Origin: Tabrizicola flagellatus | GTDB taxonomy: Bacteria; Pseudomonadota; Alphaproteobacteria; Rhodobacterales; Rhodobacteraceae | Direction of reading: 5' to 3' | Length of the DNA: 64,000 bases | Assembly (NCBI RefSeq): GCF_008271465.1 | Contig: NZ_VMDU01000017.1 | Coordinates: 1-64,000, forward strand | Shown: positions 34,322 through 38,991 of the stretch, piece after piece | Position numbering within the stretch: position 1 is the first letter of the stretch | Layout of the letters: the number at the start of each line of letters is the position of its first letter | Translations under genes and position numbers: made by a program | The notes under the pieces: model-generated | What the model was told of the DNA's origin: nothing | Database searches by the model: none | The model's input: the letters and a program-made list of their open reading frames with translations, nothing else

Positions 34322-35556
34322 TGGACGGCGATATCCGCAGGAACACCTACGACGACGGCTCGGTCGACCTCGAGACGGGCGAACAGCGCATCCGCAATTT
34401 CAACATCAACTTCGGGCCGCAGCACCCGGCGGCGCATGGCGTGCTGCGTCTGGTGCTGGAACTGGACGGCGAGATCGTCGAACGCTGCGACCCGCATATC
34501 GGCCTTCTGCACCGCGGCACCGAAAAGCTGATGGAAAGCCGCACCTATCTGCAGAACCTGCCCTATTTCGACCGGCTGGATTATGTGGCGCCGATGAACC
34601 AGGAACATGCCTGGTGTCTGGCGATCGAGCGGCTGACCGGCACGGTCGTGCCGCGCCGCGCCAGCCTGATCCGGGTGCTGTTCTCGGAAATCGGGCGGGT
34701 GCTGAACCACCTTCTGAACGTGACCACGCAGGCAATGGATGTGGGCGCCTTGACGCCTCCGCTCTGGGGCTTCGAGGAGCGCGAGAAGCTGATGGTCTTC
34801 TACGAACGCGCCTGCGGGGCGCGGCTGCACGCGGCCTATTTCCGGCCCGGCGGCGTCCATCAGGACCTGACGCCGCAGCTGATCGACGACATCGACGCCT
34901 GGGCGGAAGCCTTCCCCAAGGTTCTGGACGACATCGACGGCCTGCTGACCGAGAACCGCATCTTCAAGCAACGCAATGCCGATATCGGGATCGTCACCGA
35001 AAAGGACATCCTGGACTGGGGCTATTCCGGCGTGATGGTGCGCGGCTCGGGCCTCGCCTGGGATCTGCGCCGCGCCCAGCCCTATGAGTGCTATGACGAG
35101 TTCGACTTCAAGATCCCGGTCGGCAAGAACGGCGACTGCTATGACCGCTATCTCTGCCGGATGGCCGAGATGCGGGAATCGACCAGCATCATCCGCCAGG
35201 CCTGCGCCAAGCTCAGGGTGGAAAAGGGCGACGTGCTGGCGCGCGGCAAGATCACCCCGCCGAAGCGGGCCGAGATGAAGACCTCGATGGAGGCGCTCAT
35301 CCACCATTTCAAGCTTTACACCGAAGGGTTCCACGTCCCGGCAGGCGAGGTCTATGCCGCCGTCGAGGCGCCCAAGGGCGAGTTCGGGGTCTATCTGGTG
35401 GCCGATGGCACCAACCGTCCCTATCGCGCCAAGATCCGTGCCCCGGGCTATCCGCATCTGCAGTCGCTCGACTGGTTGTGCAAGGGGCATCAGCTGGCCG
35501 ACGTCTCGGCGATCATCGGCACGCTGGACATCGTGTTCGGGGAGATCGACCGCTGA
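34318..35556 (+). CDS. nuoD: NADH-quinone oxidoreductase subunit D
   Basis: 412 residues from ATG 34318 (overlap with the previous stop); a second ATG directly follows at 34321. The 49-kDa-type subunit forms the quinone pocket with Nuo[19 protein letters not shown] carries the conserved His pair, [20 protein letters not shown] and YAPMN-like [12 protein letters not shown] follow, and the C-terminus [19 protein letters not shown] is canonical. Followed by a 52-residue gene with a TGATG overlap. Confidence 0.97.
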
Positions 35557-35714
35557 TGCCGGACGTGACCTTCAATCTGTGGACCCTGATCCTGGGCGCG
35601 GTCGCCGGCCTCGCCGGGGTTCTGGGCTCCCGCTATGGCCACAAGCTGGTCATGGGTGCCATCTCGGGCGCCGTGGCGGCCGTGGTCCTGACCTTCGCCA
35701 GAGGATATTTCTGA
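35556..35714 (+). CDS. Small membrane protein between nuoD and nuoE
   Basis: 52 residues, [20 protein letters not shown] at the start, with two short hydrophobic stretches (about 8-24 and 30-48) separated by SRYGHK. Start codon overlaps the nuoD stop (TGATG), and nuoE begins three bases after its stop. I do not recognise it. Codon use matches the neighbours. A candidate accessory membrane peptide of complex I, or simply a co-expressed protein. Confidence 0.65.
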   Translation: MPDVTFNLWTLILGAVAGLAGVLGSRYGHKLVMGAISGAVAAVVLTFARGYF

Positions 35715-35717
35715 GCC

Positions 35718-36881
35718 ATGCTGCGCCGTCTGCACCACACCCAGCCCGACAGTTTCGCCTTCACTCCGGCGAACCTGGAATGGGCAAGGGCCCAGATCAC
35801 CAAATATCCCGAAGGCCGGCAGGCCTCGGCGATCATCCCGCTCTTGTGGCGTGCGCAGGAGCAGGAGGGCTGGCTGAGCCGCCCTGCCATCGAATATGTC
35901 GCCGACATGCTGGGCATGCCCTATATCCGGGCGCTGGAGGTGGCGACCTTCTACTTCATGTTCCAGCTTCAGCCGGTGGGGTCCGTCGCGCATATCCAGA
36001 TCTGCGGCACCACGTCCTGCATGATCTGCGGGGCCGAGGAGCTTGTGGCAGTGGCCAGGGAGCTGATCGCTCCGACCCCGCACACGCTGTCTGCCGACGG
36101 CAAGTTCAGCTGGGAAGAGGTCGAATGCATGGGCGCCTGCGCCAATGCGCCGATGGCCCAGATCGGCAAGGACTATTACGAGGACCTGACCGCCGAGAAG
36201 CTGCGCGAGCTGATCGGGCGGTTCCGCAAGGGCGAGGTGCCGGTGCCGGGGCCGCAGAACGGGCGCTATGCGGCCGAACCGGCGGGCGGGCTGACCAGCC
36301 TGAAGGAATTCGAGTCGGGACGCCGGCAGTACAATGCCAGCGTGCAGCTTGCGGTGGACATCGGCGACACGGTCAAGCGCATCGACGGAACCGAAGTGCC
36401 GCTGACGACGCCCTGGCTGGGCGTGGCGGCGAAGGCGAAGCCGGCGAAGGCGCAAGCGGCCGAGCCGAAGGCAGCTTCGATGGTCCCGGCCGACGCGACC
36501 GGCATCACGGCGCAGGAGGCCAAGCCCCGGTCGAAGGGTGCCGCGAAGGCTGGCGGCGGTCGTTCTGCCGCGACGCCCGAGGCCGTTGCACCGGCCGTGA
36601 CGGGCCGCAAGCCCAAGGCTCTGAAGGCGGCGCGAAAGGGCAAGGCGGATGATCTGAAGCTCATTCTCGGCATCGGACCCAAGCTCGAGGCGCTGTGTCA
36701 CCGGCTGGGGTTCTTCCATTTCGACCAGATCGCCGAATGGACAGCCGAGGAGATCGCCTGGGTTGACGAGAACCTGGAAGGGTTCAAGGGCCGGGTCAGC
36801 CGCGACAAGTGGGTCGAACAGGCCCGGATCCTTGCGGCCGGGGGGACCGTCGCAGAGGCCGAAGCGGCGGCACGCGACTGA
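35718..36881 (+). CDS. nuoE: NADH-quinone oxidoreductase subunit E with long C-terminal extension
   Basis: 387 residues; the catalytic part is only the first ~170-200, as in ordinary 24-kDa subunits. The thioredoxin-like domain binds the [2Fe-2S] cluster N1a through [14 protein letters not shown] and [10 protein letters not shown] (four Cys). After an Ala/Lys/Pro-rich linker (about 235-305) comes an 80-residue helical module (309-387): [49 protein letters not shown]. This module recurs in the next two genes. It resembles the helix-hairpin-helix/H3TH domain of COG3743-type proteins. Long NuoE proteins are known in Rhodobacter, but the extension's role is not. Confidence 0.95.
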
Positions 36882-36939
36882 GTGTGGTATGTGATCGCCC
36901 GGATCCGGCAAGGGCCGGACCGGCGACGGGAGCGGGTTG

Positions 36940-38100
36940 ATGTTGGACCGGGATGACGACACGACGATCGGCAGGGGAGGCTGGGCACTTGTCCTGGCCT
37001 CGGGCCTGATATTCTTCGTCGTCCTCCGCTATGTCTTCCACTACCTGGTGTTTCCCTCGCTGGCCTTTGCGCTGGCAATCGCACTGGTCGTGCTCTTGAT
37101 CCTCTACCGGCTTGCCGAGGCGGTGAAGCGTCACGACGATGCCGAGGCAGAGCGCCATGTGCGCAGGATCGTCCCGGCCTCGACCCTTGCCGAGGGCACC
37201 ACGCGGGTGAGCGGGATCGAGGGGGCGCAGGCCTCGCCGGTCGTGGCGGTGCCGGTGCGGCCCGTTCCGGCGGCGACGGTGCCGCAACGTCCGGCCGCGA
37301 TGGTCACTCCCCTGGCGAAGCTCGACCCTGCGCCGCTGATCATGCCGCCGCAAGCCGCGCCTGCGGCTGCGCCGGCGCCGGCGCGGGCGGCTACGCCCAT
37401 TGCAAAGGCGGAGCCGGTTCCGCCGGCGGCACCCGAACCGCACCGCGACGCGGACCCCGTCGCCGACCCGGCGACAGAAGCGCCCATCGCCGACCTGGCG
37501 ACAGAAGCGCCCGCCGCCGACCCGGCGGCAGAACCGAAGGCGGCGTCCAGGTCGCGGTCGAAGGCCGGCGTCAAGCCGGCTGCCGATGGCAGCGCCGGAT
37601 CGAAGGACAAGGCGCGCGGGCGGACAGCCGCAAAGCCGTCGGCATCCGCTGCTGGCAAGGGGAGACCCGCGGTCGGCTTCAAGGGCAAGTCGCAGCCGAC
37701 CGCAGCGTCTGCGCCCACGGGCGCCGCGGCTCCGGTCGCCGAGGCCACCCCCCCGGTCGCCGGTAAGGCAAAGGCCACCAGGACCAGGGCCGCCGGGAAA
37801 TCCAAGGCATCGAAGGCGCCTGCGACCGGGCTGGTGCGGCTTGCCGCCCCGCGCGGCGGCAAGGCCGACGACCTGAAGATGATCGACGGGGTCGGCCCGG
37901 CTCTGGAGAAGCTGATGAACAGCCTGGGCTTCTATCACTTCGACCAGATCGCCGCCTGGACCGAGGCGGATGTCGCGCTGGTCGATGCCGAGATGAAATC
38001 GTTCAAGGGCCGCGCGACGCGGGACAAATGGGTGCTCCAGGCGAAGATCCTGGCGAATGGAGGGACGAAGGAAGAAGCCGCCGCCGCCGCCAGGGCGTGA
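36940..38100 (+). CDS. Membrane protein with Ala/Pro-rich linker and NuoE-type C-terminal module
   Basis: 386 residues from ATG 36940 (a TTG one codon earlier is possible). Two membrane helices near the N-terminus (GWALVLASGLIFFVVLRYVF; FALAIALVVLLILYRLAEAV). A long Ala/Pro/Lys low-complexity region follows (about 70-300), including three 27-base tandem repeats (37462-37542) coding ADPATEAPI-like units. The last 79 residues (37861-38097) are the helical module KADDLKMIDGVGPALEKL...FYHFDQIAAWTEADV...FKGRATRDKWVLQA, very close to the NuoE tail. It looks like a membrane tether presenting this module on the cytoplasmic face near complex I. No catalytic residues recognised. Confidence 0.8.
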   Translation: MLDRDDDTTIGRGGWALVLASGLIFFVVLRYVFHYLVFPSLAFALAIALVVLLILYRLAEAVKRHDDAEAERHVRRIVPASTLAEGTTRVSGIEGAQASPVVAVPVRPVPAATVPQRPAAMVTPLAKLDPAPLIMPPQAAPAAAPAPARAATPIAKAEPVPPAAPEPHRDADPVADPATEAPIADLATEAPAADPAAEPKAASRSRSKAGVKPAADGSAGSKDKARGRTAAKPSASAAGKGRPAVGFKGKSQPTAASAPTGAAAPVAEATPPVAGKAKATRTRAAGKSKASKAPATGLVRLAAPRGGKADDLKMIDGVGPALEKLMNSLGFYHFDQIAAWTEADVALVDAEMKSFKGRATRDKWVLQAKILANGGTKEEAAAAARA

Positions 38101-38162
38101 CGGTGAAACGTAGCAACGCGGAAACCGGGACCGCCGGGCCGCCCAGACGGGAGTGACATGGA

Positions 38163-38744
38163 ATGCGCAGTGCAGAGAACGTGAATGCCCCTTGGCTGGG
38201 CGGCTGGATCATCGGTGCGGCGGCCGGGCTGGTCGCCTTCGGCGCGTTGATCGTGGTGGGCAAGTTCGACTATTCGCCCGCGGCAGCGATCGGGATCGTG
38301 GTGGCCTTGCTCGTCGGTGCCATCCTGGGCCTGCCCTGGGGGACGAAATCGCCGGCTCCGGTCGCGCGGGGCATGGGTGCCACGGCAGAGCCCGTTGCCG
38401 CGCCGGTCGCGGCCGCCGCGGCCGCCCCCGCGGCCTTCGTGTCGATGCCCGCCGAGGCCCATGCCGGACCCGAGCGGTTGTCGGCGCCGCGCGGCGGCAA
38501 GGCCGACGACCTTAAGGAGATCGAAGGCATCGGTCCGGCAATGGAAAAGCTGGTCAACGAGCTGGGCTTCTTCCACTTTGATCAGATCGCCAGCTGGTCG
38601 GAGGCCGACGTGGCCTGGGTCGATGCGAACCTGAAGGGCTTCAAGGGCCGCGTCACCCGCGACAAGTGGGTGGCGCAGGCAAAGATCATCGTCAACGAAG
38701 GGCTGGAGGCGTTCCGCGAACGCGCCAAGACCAACAACTACTGA
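38163..38744 (+). CDS. Membrane protein with NuoE-type C-terminal module (third copy)
   Basis: 193 residues. Two membrane helices (WLGGWIIGAAAGLVAFGALI; SPAAAIGIVVALLVGAILGL), a short Ala/Pro linker and the module from residue 113 to the end (38499-38741): [54 protein letters not shown]. Same architecture as the preceding gene with a shorter linker, so the two arose by duplication, as did the NuoE extension. Located between nuoE and nuoF. The module is predicted helical; if it is a true helix-hairpin-helix domain it could bind DNA, RNA or protein. Confidence 0.8.
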   Translation: MRSAENVNAPWLGGWIIGAAAGLVAFGALIVVGKFDYSPAAAIGIVVALLVGAILGLPWGTKSPAPVARGMGATAEPVAAPVAAAAAAPAAFVSMPAEAHAGPERLSAPRGGKADDLKEIEGIGPAMEKLVNELGFFHFDQIASWSEADVAWVDANLKGFKGRVTRDKWVAQAKIIVNEGLEAFRERAKTNNY

Positions 38745-38766: not shown

Positions 38767-38991
38767 ATGCAGAACCGTCCCGACCCGGCTGACCTTCAGC
38801 GCGCCCGACAGGTGCGGCTGGTGGCCATCGTCCTGGCCGGGACGATGCTTCTGTGGATGGGGGCGCAGGTCCTGGGCGGACAACTCGGGTTGGAGACGCG
38901 CTATGTGTTCCTCTTCGACCTTCTGGCCATCGCGGGCTTCGTCTGGGCCCTGGTGGTGACGTATCAGATCTGGCGCGGACGCCGGAGTTAG
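38767..38991 (+). CDS. Small two-helix membrane protein (DUF5337-like)
   Basis: 74 residues with two membrane helices: VRLVAIVLAGTMLLWMGAQV and FLFDLLAIAGFVWALVVTYQ. The N-terminus MQNRPDPADLQRARQVR is polar and should face the cytoplasm. I recall this as the DUF5337 family, found before nuoF in Rhodobacterales. Ten bases separate it from nuoF, so it is co-expressed with complex I. No function known. Confidence 0.75.
   Translation: MQNRPDPADLQRARQVRLVAIVLAGTMLLWMGAQVLGGQLGLETRYVFLFDLLAIAGFVWALVVTYQIWRGRRS

Follow-up and report, generated by a model that had tools for sequence, protein, structure and literature searches.

Module-bearing membrane hairpin genes between nuoE and nuoF of Tabrizicola flagellatus and their relation to reaction-centre protein-O

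One module at the end of three nuo-operon proteins

The nuo operon in the window, i.e. the 64,000-nucleotide stretch of Tabrizicola flagellatus DNA (contig NZ_VMDU01000017.1) analysed here as a whole, carries two genes between nuoE and nuoF, here called g2 and g3, whose products join two membrane helices to a C-terminal module that also ends NuoE. From sequence comparison, g3 is a member of the family of protein-O, a hairpin protein of the reaction centre-light-harvesting 1 (RC-LH1) complex of Dinoroseobacter shibae, and g2 is its divergent tandem paralogue; the respiratory operon here also carries a photosystem-associated protein family.

All three genes lie on the forward strand. nuoE (35718..36881; 387 amino acids) encodes a thioredoxin-like [2Fe-2S] subunit (PF01257, residues 25-168 by Pfam), a linker and a helix-hairpin-helix (HhH)-like C-terminal module, the first copy (36642..36878, delimited by blastp and motifs); the NCBIfam model for long NuoE proteins, NF009040, matches residues 1-378, C-terminal extension included, at 581.8 bits against a curated cut-off of 514. 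g2 (36940..38100) comprises 386 residues counted from the ATG at 36940, taken as the start although the open-reading-frame list favours a TTG at 36937, and consists of a membrane hairpin placed approximately at 36982..37101 by hydropathy windows, a long Ala/Pro/Lys linker and the second module copy (37861..38097), the tail of which is NuoE-like by eye. In g3 (38163..38744; 193 residues) the hairpin (38196..38330, from an AlphaFold2 model and Foldseek) is followed by a flexible Ala/Pro linker (38331..38498) and the third copy (38499..38741), with the tail EGLEAFRERAKTNNY.

The C-termini of NuoE, g2 and g3 constitute a single domain of 79-81 residues. Over 80 aligned columns, identical residues number 51 for NuoE and g2 (64%), 49 for NuoE and g3 (61%) and 52 for g2 and g3 (65%), and blastp relates the copies to each other at E 8e-34 to 2e-39. 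These values bear out an earlier note on this DNA, which had read the three ends as one domain on the strength of three motifs (KADDLK..., LGF-x-HFDQIA... and FKGR...), each of which was found in all three copies. The same note had described the extra copies as tethered by a pair of membrane helices with an Ala/Pro linker, and here too it was right: hydropathy places two hydrophobic helices and then an Ala/Pro-rich linker at the N-terminal side of both g2 and g3, and the AlphaFold2 model of g3, built with 44 family sequences, has helices at residues 12-31 and 37-56. Ten-residue means of the predicted local distance difference test (pLDDT) are 93-98 over residues 11-50 and 87 over residues 51-60, fall to 53-62 in the linker (residues 61-100), and recover to block means of 89-97 in the module, which is modelled as compact and helical. 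A 23-row profile run across the genome of the window organism found, at E<=0.001, the modules of NuoE, g2 and g3 only, and 18 columns are invariant in a 34-row module alignment.

Protein-O membership and the fold of the module

Against PDB sequences, phmmer matched g3 to 8yy9_O ('Reaction center protein O chain') at E 1.3e-31 and to 9wqv_a at 1e-28; these scores come from linker and module, and only 6.1 bits fall to the hairpin of protein-O. g2 matched the C-terminal module of protein-O (residues 159-239) at E 1.2e-26. When nuo-located relatives, with g3 among them, were combined in a profile of 44 rows, its positions 1-260 aligned with residues 1-239 of 8yy9_O (E 4.7e-73), and the same profile recovered 9wqv_a (E 8.6e-62) and the hairpin-only chain 9lts_A (E 4e-8). 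For the hairpin itself, a hidden Markov model built without the window's genus gave 44.5 bits for g3 and 29.4 for g2, the best reversed decoy reaching 18.6, and the g3 hairpin superposed on 8yy9_O with TMt 0.82 and a root-mean-square deviation of 1.6 (Foldseek E 0.48). Entries 8yy9 and 9lts both show the RC-LH1 of D. shibae, and 9wqv shows the LH1-RC of Rhodovulum sulfidophilum (9lts and 9wqv by entry titles). Both g2 and g3 lie between nuoE and nuoF, as the protein-O gene does; their membership in this family is the main point that the earlier note overlooked.

The sections on protein-O of the D. shibae study (PMC12079452) report its detection by mass spectrometry in RC-LH1, assign residues 8-59 to a hairpin that has the RC on one side and LH1 alpha 11/12 on the other, place its gene between nuoE and nuoF, and describe a C-terminal domain that is untraced in the map and resembles the NuoE C-terminus. 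The gene position and the likeness to NuoE are, accordingly, already in print. In those sections the authors give the function as not known and leave undecided both the purpose of the C-terminal domain and a native, recruited or acquired origin (PMC12079452, 2025).

The module looks like an HhH fold, with weak structural matches to the acidic-repeat (AR) domains of NusA, which stood near the top of Foldseek searches with both the g3 model and the module alone (TMt 0.66-0.69). Among the matches listed for the module alone were also RadA, Rad51 and DNA polymerases, the top-ranked one being a mitoribosomal protein of poor fit. Sequence profiles likewise lean weakly towards NusA AR, at a score that is not significant (E 0.21). 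Pfam gave sub-threshold matches only for the window modules, to HHH_5 (g3) and Cdd1, and a related downstream module in G126 exceeds the HHH_5 cut-off (28.6 against 27). In NCBIfam, the models for NuoE, L21, S2 and the phasin PhaH each match all three copies, in every case with the C-terminal part of the model. The earlier note had likened the module to the H3TH domain of COG3743; an HhH-like fold survives from that comparison, weakly and at fold level, and the specific H3TH or DNA-binding assignment is not supported, as flap endonuclease was absent from the matches listed (31 of 31 for the g3 model, the best 50 of 113 for the module alone), HHH_5 matches g3 alone and below its cut-off, and the modules are on average mildly acidic. 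The suggested link to the rplU extension fails in the window organism, whose own L21 leaves everything beyond position 151 of the 216-position model unmatched.

A module that binds nucleic acid, tethering complex I or the photosystem to nucleoid, mRNA or ribosomes, would suit the HhH-like fold, the occurrence of related modules in the models for L21, S2 and phasin, and the fold neighbours RadA and DNA polymerases. Against this stand the mean net charge of the modules (-2.3 over 166 NuoE copies and -1.4 over 139 copies downstream of it, with single values running from -7 to +4) and the best small-domain neighbours, the NusA AR domains, one of which (6ib8) is a complex with the protein partner SuhB, arguments that are not strong in themselves. 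We found no evidence for the scaffold at the NADH arm, or for the link to nucleoid or ribosomes, proposed earlier, and give a nucleic-acid role very little credence; the HhH-like module most likely docks a protein partner.

Other carriers of the module, or their lack of it, were seen in passing. The L21 protein of the window organism (G000:C16:10136-10594) is without the module extension that L21 bears in several relatives. A further membrane carrier occurs away from nuo (L274 in G062, L275 in G126 and L278 in G015), in which a single helix at the N-terminus (MF-NWGFLL-EIW) and a middle segment precede the module.

Distribution of the hairpin gene in the order

The survey sample comprised 196 genomes from the order, all with nuoF, of which 82 count as phototrophs by possession of reaction-centre L/M genes (PF00124). 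The 6 kb upstream of nuoF were read in 180 of the other 195 genomes and, together with the window, gave 181 loci; 15 of the 114 non-phototrophs were left out by hand, loci unseen, as surplus representatives of the larger genera or, in the case of G017, because it lay close to the beginning of a contig (the others being G091, G113, G121, G129, G135, G145, G150, G160, G163, G168, G185, G186, G188 and G194). Of the 82 phototrophs, 76 have a hairpin-plus-module gene in the nuoE-nuoF interval, and of the 99 non-phototrophs 54 do (Fisher 5.6e-9), a count in which five of the 130 carriers (G054, G124, G130, G164 and G167) were kept with one helix only above the hydropathy threshold. NuoE itself bears the module in 77/82 phototrophs and 89/99 non-phototrophs. 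Two module copies were present in 111 nuoE-nuoF regions, one in 56, three in 9 and none in 5; the triplicate set to which the earlier note drew attention is not the rule in the family (9/181). Two module genes with membrane helices occur in just two regions, the window and G155.

On a tree of nuoD and nuoE, genes of the same operon, the rate of hairpin-gene loss was 0.151 without phototrophy and 0.013 with it (likelihood ratio (LR) 9.84, 1 degree of freedom (df), p 0.0017; p 0.0019 in the 2-df version), i.e. the gene is lost roughly ten times faster in the absence of phototrophy, these p values being chi-square approximations from midpoint-rooted models with some rates at bound. Among phototrophs without a nuo copy, G134 encodes a 205-residue hairpin-plus-module protein (L267:4565-5182, reverse strand) 35 bp after dxs, at the end of pufB-A-L-M-X-dxs (genes recognised by eye in the case of pufB, pufA and dxs, and so presumptive), and G191 has a 75-residue hairpin-like open reading frame (ORF) without module in the nuoE-nuoF gap (L263:5531-5758, forward strand). 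Among 113 genomes from other alphaproteobacterial families, one per family, 8 gave a match at E<=1e-12, and none of the eight spans the whole hairpin, the earliest starting at profile position 39 of 260. Dependence of the gene on PufX was not seen (nuo copy in 39/43 PufX-bearing and 37/39 other phototrophs).

These distributions bear on a different explanation, that the hairpin proteins belong to complex I, as accessory subunits of it or as factors in its assembly, their link to RC-LH1 in some phototrophs being a secondary recruitment or carry-over in purification. The location of the gene within the nuo operon would agree with such a role, as would its retention in 54/99 non-phototrophs, the near-universal module on NuoE (166/181 regions) and the name of the Rhodovulum chain 9wqv_a, which is that of a complex I subunit. 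Set against these are the RC-LH1 structures of two species in which the family is modelled, the copy that G134 carries in its puf operon, and a hairpin gene that does not track the NuoE module (10/15 genomes without and 120/166 with it; Fisher p 0.76), a result in which no obligate pairing between the two is seen either. Moreover, the NuoE chain 8qby_E of a solved complex I, which we take to be that of Paracoccus (P.) denitrificans, has 239 residues and no module. The published description of P. denitrificans complex I names as extra subunits, in its relevant part, NDUFS4, NDUFS6, NDUFA12 and PIMT and no such hairpin, which would count only if that strain encodes the gene. On balance we regard the complex I explanation as unlikely. 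Within the 120 genomes that have both, a NuoE module resembles the hairpin module of its own genome only slightly more than others (similarity 0.68 against 0.65 for unmatched pairs; mean fractional rank 0.40, chance 0.5).

The tails of the modules suggest exchange between copies. A tail of the form EG-EAF--RAKTN-Y, matched by its RAKTN core, ends the hairpin-gene modules of ten survey proteins, g3 among them, and occurs on NuoE in 6/46 genomes with a NuoE module and no hairpin gene and in 0/120 with both (Fisher 3.5e-4). Ten NuoE proteins at named loci carry it, of which nine show no other module ORF, the contig of one (L018) ending too early to tell; L037 is the exception, with a RAKTN-tailed NuoE and another module ORF. 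Judged by eye, a g2-type hairpin is combined with a g3-type tail in G171, L014, L015, L017, L019 and L025, and the g2 tail in the window is closer to that of NuoE. The median nuoE-nuoF gap is 278 bp without a hairpin gene and 1147 bp with one. The simplest reading of these sequences would be that recombination between module repeats is able to remove the hairpin gene, leaving its module fused to NuoE. Should the copies be for the most part neutral tandem repeats that recombination spreads and removes, with no common function, both the distribution of the RAKTN tail on NuoE and the six mixed loci would fit; the 18 invariant columns and the tie between gene retention and phototrophy argue to the contrary, and we hold this to be very unlikely.

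A residue of the hairpin also varies with lifestyle. The turn between the helices reads WSFLQG in D. shibae protein-O, and its Gln is present in 24/37 hairpins of PufX-less phototrophs, 8/41 of PufX-bearing ones and 0/54 of non-phototrophs, i.e. 32/78 phototroph hairpins overall. The tree requires no fewer than 15 changes of this residue, and a model in which Gln depends on phototrophy was favoured (LR 23.4, 2 df, p 8e-6, with rates at bounds). In the published structure, the hairpin abuts residues 266-270 of RC-L with its periplasmic end (PMC12079452), and contact of the turn Gln with the RC is therefore plausible, the mapping of Gln onto these residues being our own.

Other small genes in these regions were noted. 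An extra module ORF without membrane helices lies between hairpin gene and nuoF in 7/82 phototrophs (G013, G016, G044, G050, G083, G125 and G126) and 0/99 non-phototrophs; some appear phasin-like by eye, and searches with Pfam (three ORFs) and NCBIfam (two of these) returned module and linker-module matches only. In the window, a DUF5337 (PF17272) small protein is encoded at 38767-38991 (forward strand) between g3 and nuoF, with ORFs resembling it by eye at the same place in G171, G175, G046, G062 and G195. Between nuoD and nuoE, a 52-residue two-helix ORF (MPDVTFNLW...; 35556-35714, forward strand) is almost identical in G155 and G171, and G003 has what by eye is a likely relative. It is about the size of PufY, a hairpin protein of another RC-LH1, and was rejected as a PufY relative, its best PDB match (E 0.69) being to unrelated enzymes. 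A check for plasmid carriage of the region returned no match.

Proposed role and comparison with known systems

We propose, with a probability of about 0.6, that g3 and g2 are protein-O-family hairpins which sit in a quinone-handling membrane complex, in some phototrophs RC-LH1, and hold out a docking module. The two-helix hairpin would anchor the protein in that complex, which in at least some species of phototrophic Rhodobacteraceae is the RC-LH1 core, where it would occupy the space that separates the reaction centre from the antenna ring and probably aids assembly or quinone passage. The flexible cytoplasmic linker would bear the HhH-like module, most likely as a protein dock. NuoE carries the same module, and a partner or docking site is therefore probably common to NuoE and the hairpin protein. 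The window organism is itself a phototroph, with pufB-A-L-M-X-dxs (L and M by PF00124, PufX found, the remainder by eye); its 16-kb puf stretch contains no module ORF, and no pufC was seen there by eye. Its two-hairpin arrangement is rare, and g3 or g2 may bind RC-LH1 in this PufX-type setting, where the hairpin might play a comparable part; in non-phototrophs the hairpin would presumably have another role.

Several observations weigh against this proposal. Both g2 and g3 lack the Cys10-Cys59 pair and the WSFLQ turn of D. shibae protein-O; because the pair (80/132 family hairpins) and the Gln (32/132) vary within the family, we did not take them as family-defining. The turn Gln is missing from the Rhodovulum chain 9wqv_a as it is from g2 and g3, and no Foldseek match listed for the g3 model or the module reached E <=0.001. 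The retention of the gene by 54/99 non-phototrophs means that RC-LH1 cannot be its sole role. Six of the 82 phototrophs have no nuo copy, and in four of them (G046, G062, G094 and G195) neither a nuo copy, a puf copy nor a hairpin ORF was found by whole-genome and puf-region searches aimed at modules or module ORFs only. Our first model of gene loss, with eight rates, gave p 0.053 and had not converged, its likelihood lying below that of a nested model, for which reason our figures come from the nested models; with 8 pairs, the independent-pairs test was powerless for the hairpin gene, and with 6-7 pairs it was too small for the Gln. Finally, Fuscovulum blasticum DSM 2131, presumably the present name of Rhodobacter (Rba.) blasticus, encodes a 218-residue g3-like protein (L032). 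The Rba. blasticus RC-LH1 is, in the relevant part of its description, of PufX type and without PufY or a homologue (PMC11463270); loss of the hairpin protein in purification is possible.

The survey points to an old nuo-operon gene of Rhodobacteraceae, kept under phototrophy and lost faster without it, and bears on the origin of protein-O, which the 2025 D. shibae paper, in its discussion of that protein, left undecided (PMC12079452). General, mostly open literature searches, none worded for each point, found no family-wide survey, puf-operon copy or tandem hairpin pair, and no module fusion pattern or phototroph-linked residue. The question raised is why one domain should be common to complex I and a photosystem-associated protein, and the family can now be tested in ordinary laboratory phototrophs. 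A bolder and quite improbable extension of our proposal is that in phototrophic Rhodobacteraceae the NuoE module and the RC-LH1 hairpin module form a matched docking pair joining two quinone-linked complexes. Acting module-to-module or through a common partner, such a pair would let quinol from the light reactions meet complex I locally and could serve reverse electron flow to NADH, and the window lineage would have doubled its membrane part.

Of the known systems, D. shibae protein-O (8yy9, 8yz2, 9jpb and 9km0, and 9lts/9ltv as 'Protein LRC'; PMC12079452) is one of those nearest to g2 and g3, with which it shares the hairpin, the flexible linker, the homologous C-terminal module and a gene between nuoE and nuoF. 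It differs in its Cys pair, which forms a disulfide, and its WSFLQG turn, whereas the window combines an RC of PufX type with two hairpin genes in tandem. Chain a of 9wqv, named 'NADH:ubiquinone oxidoreductase 41 kd complex i subunit', stands in a deposited LH1-RC structure for which literature searches found no publication; by profile it has hairpin, linker and module, and like g3 it lacks the turn Gln. Also comparable are the C-terminal extensions of L21, S2 and PhaH (NF008915, NF008916, NF008966 and NF045508), in which a homologous module sits on another carrier, without a hairpin, in proteins named as ribosomal or granule proteins. The AR2 domain of NusA (1wcn, 6ib8) is a small domain folded similarly to the module (64-68 columns aligned at TMt 0.66-0.69), at only ~20% identity and Foldseek E 0.5-0.7. 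PufY (protein-U/Y) of Rba. sphaeroides is like protein-O a two-helix hairpin at a similar RC/LH1 position, according to the comparison drawn in PMC12079452; unlike protein-O it has 53 residues and a quite distinct sequence, and its gene is not described near nuo in the passages on PufY (PMC12079452, PMC9007983). PDB sequence searches at E<=10 with g3, with g2 and with the 44-row profile brought up no PufY chain.

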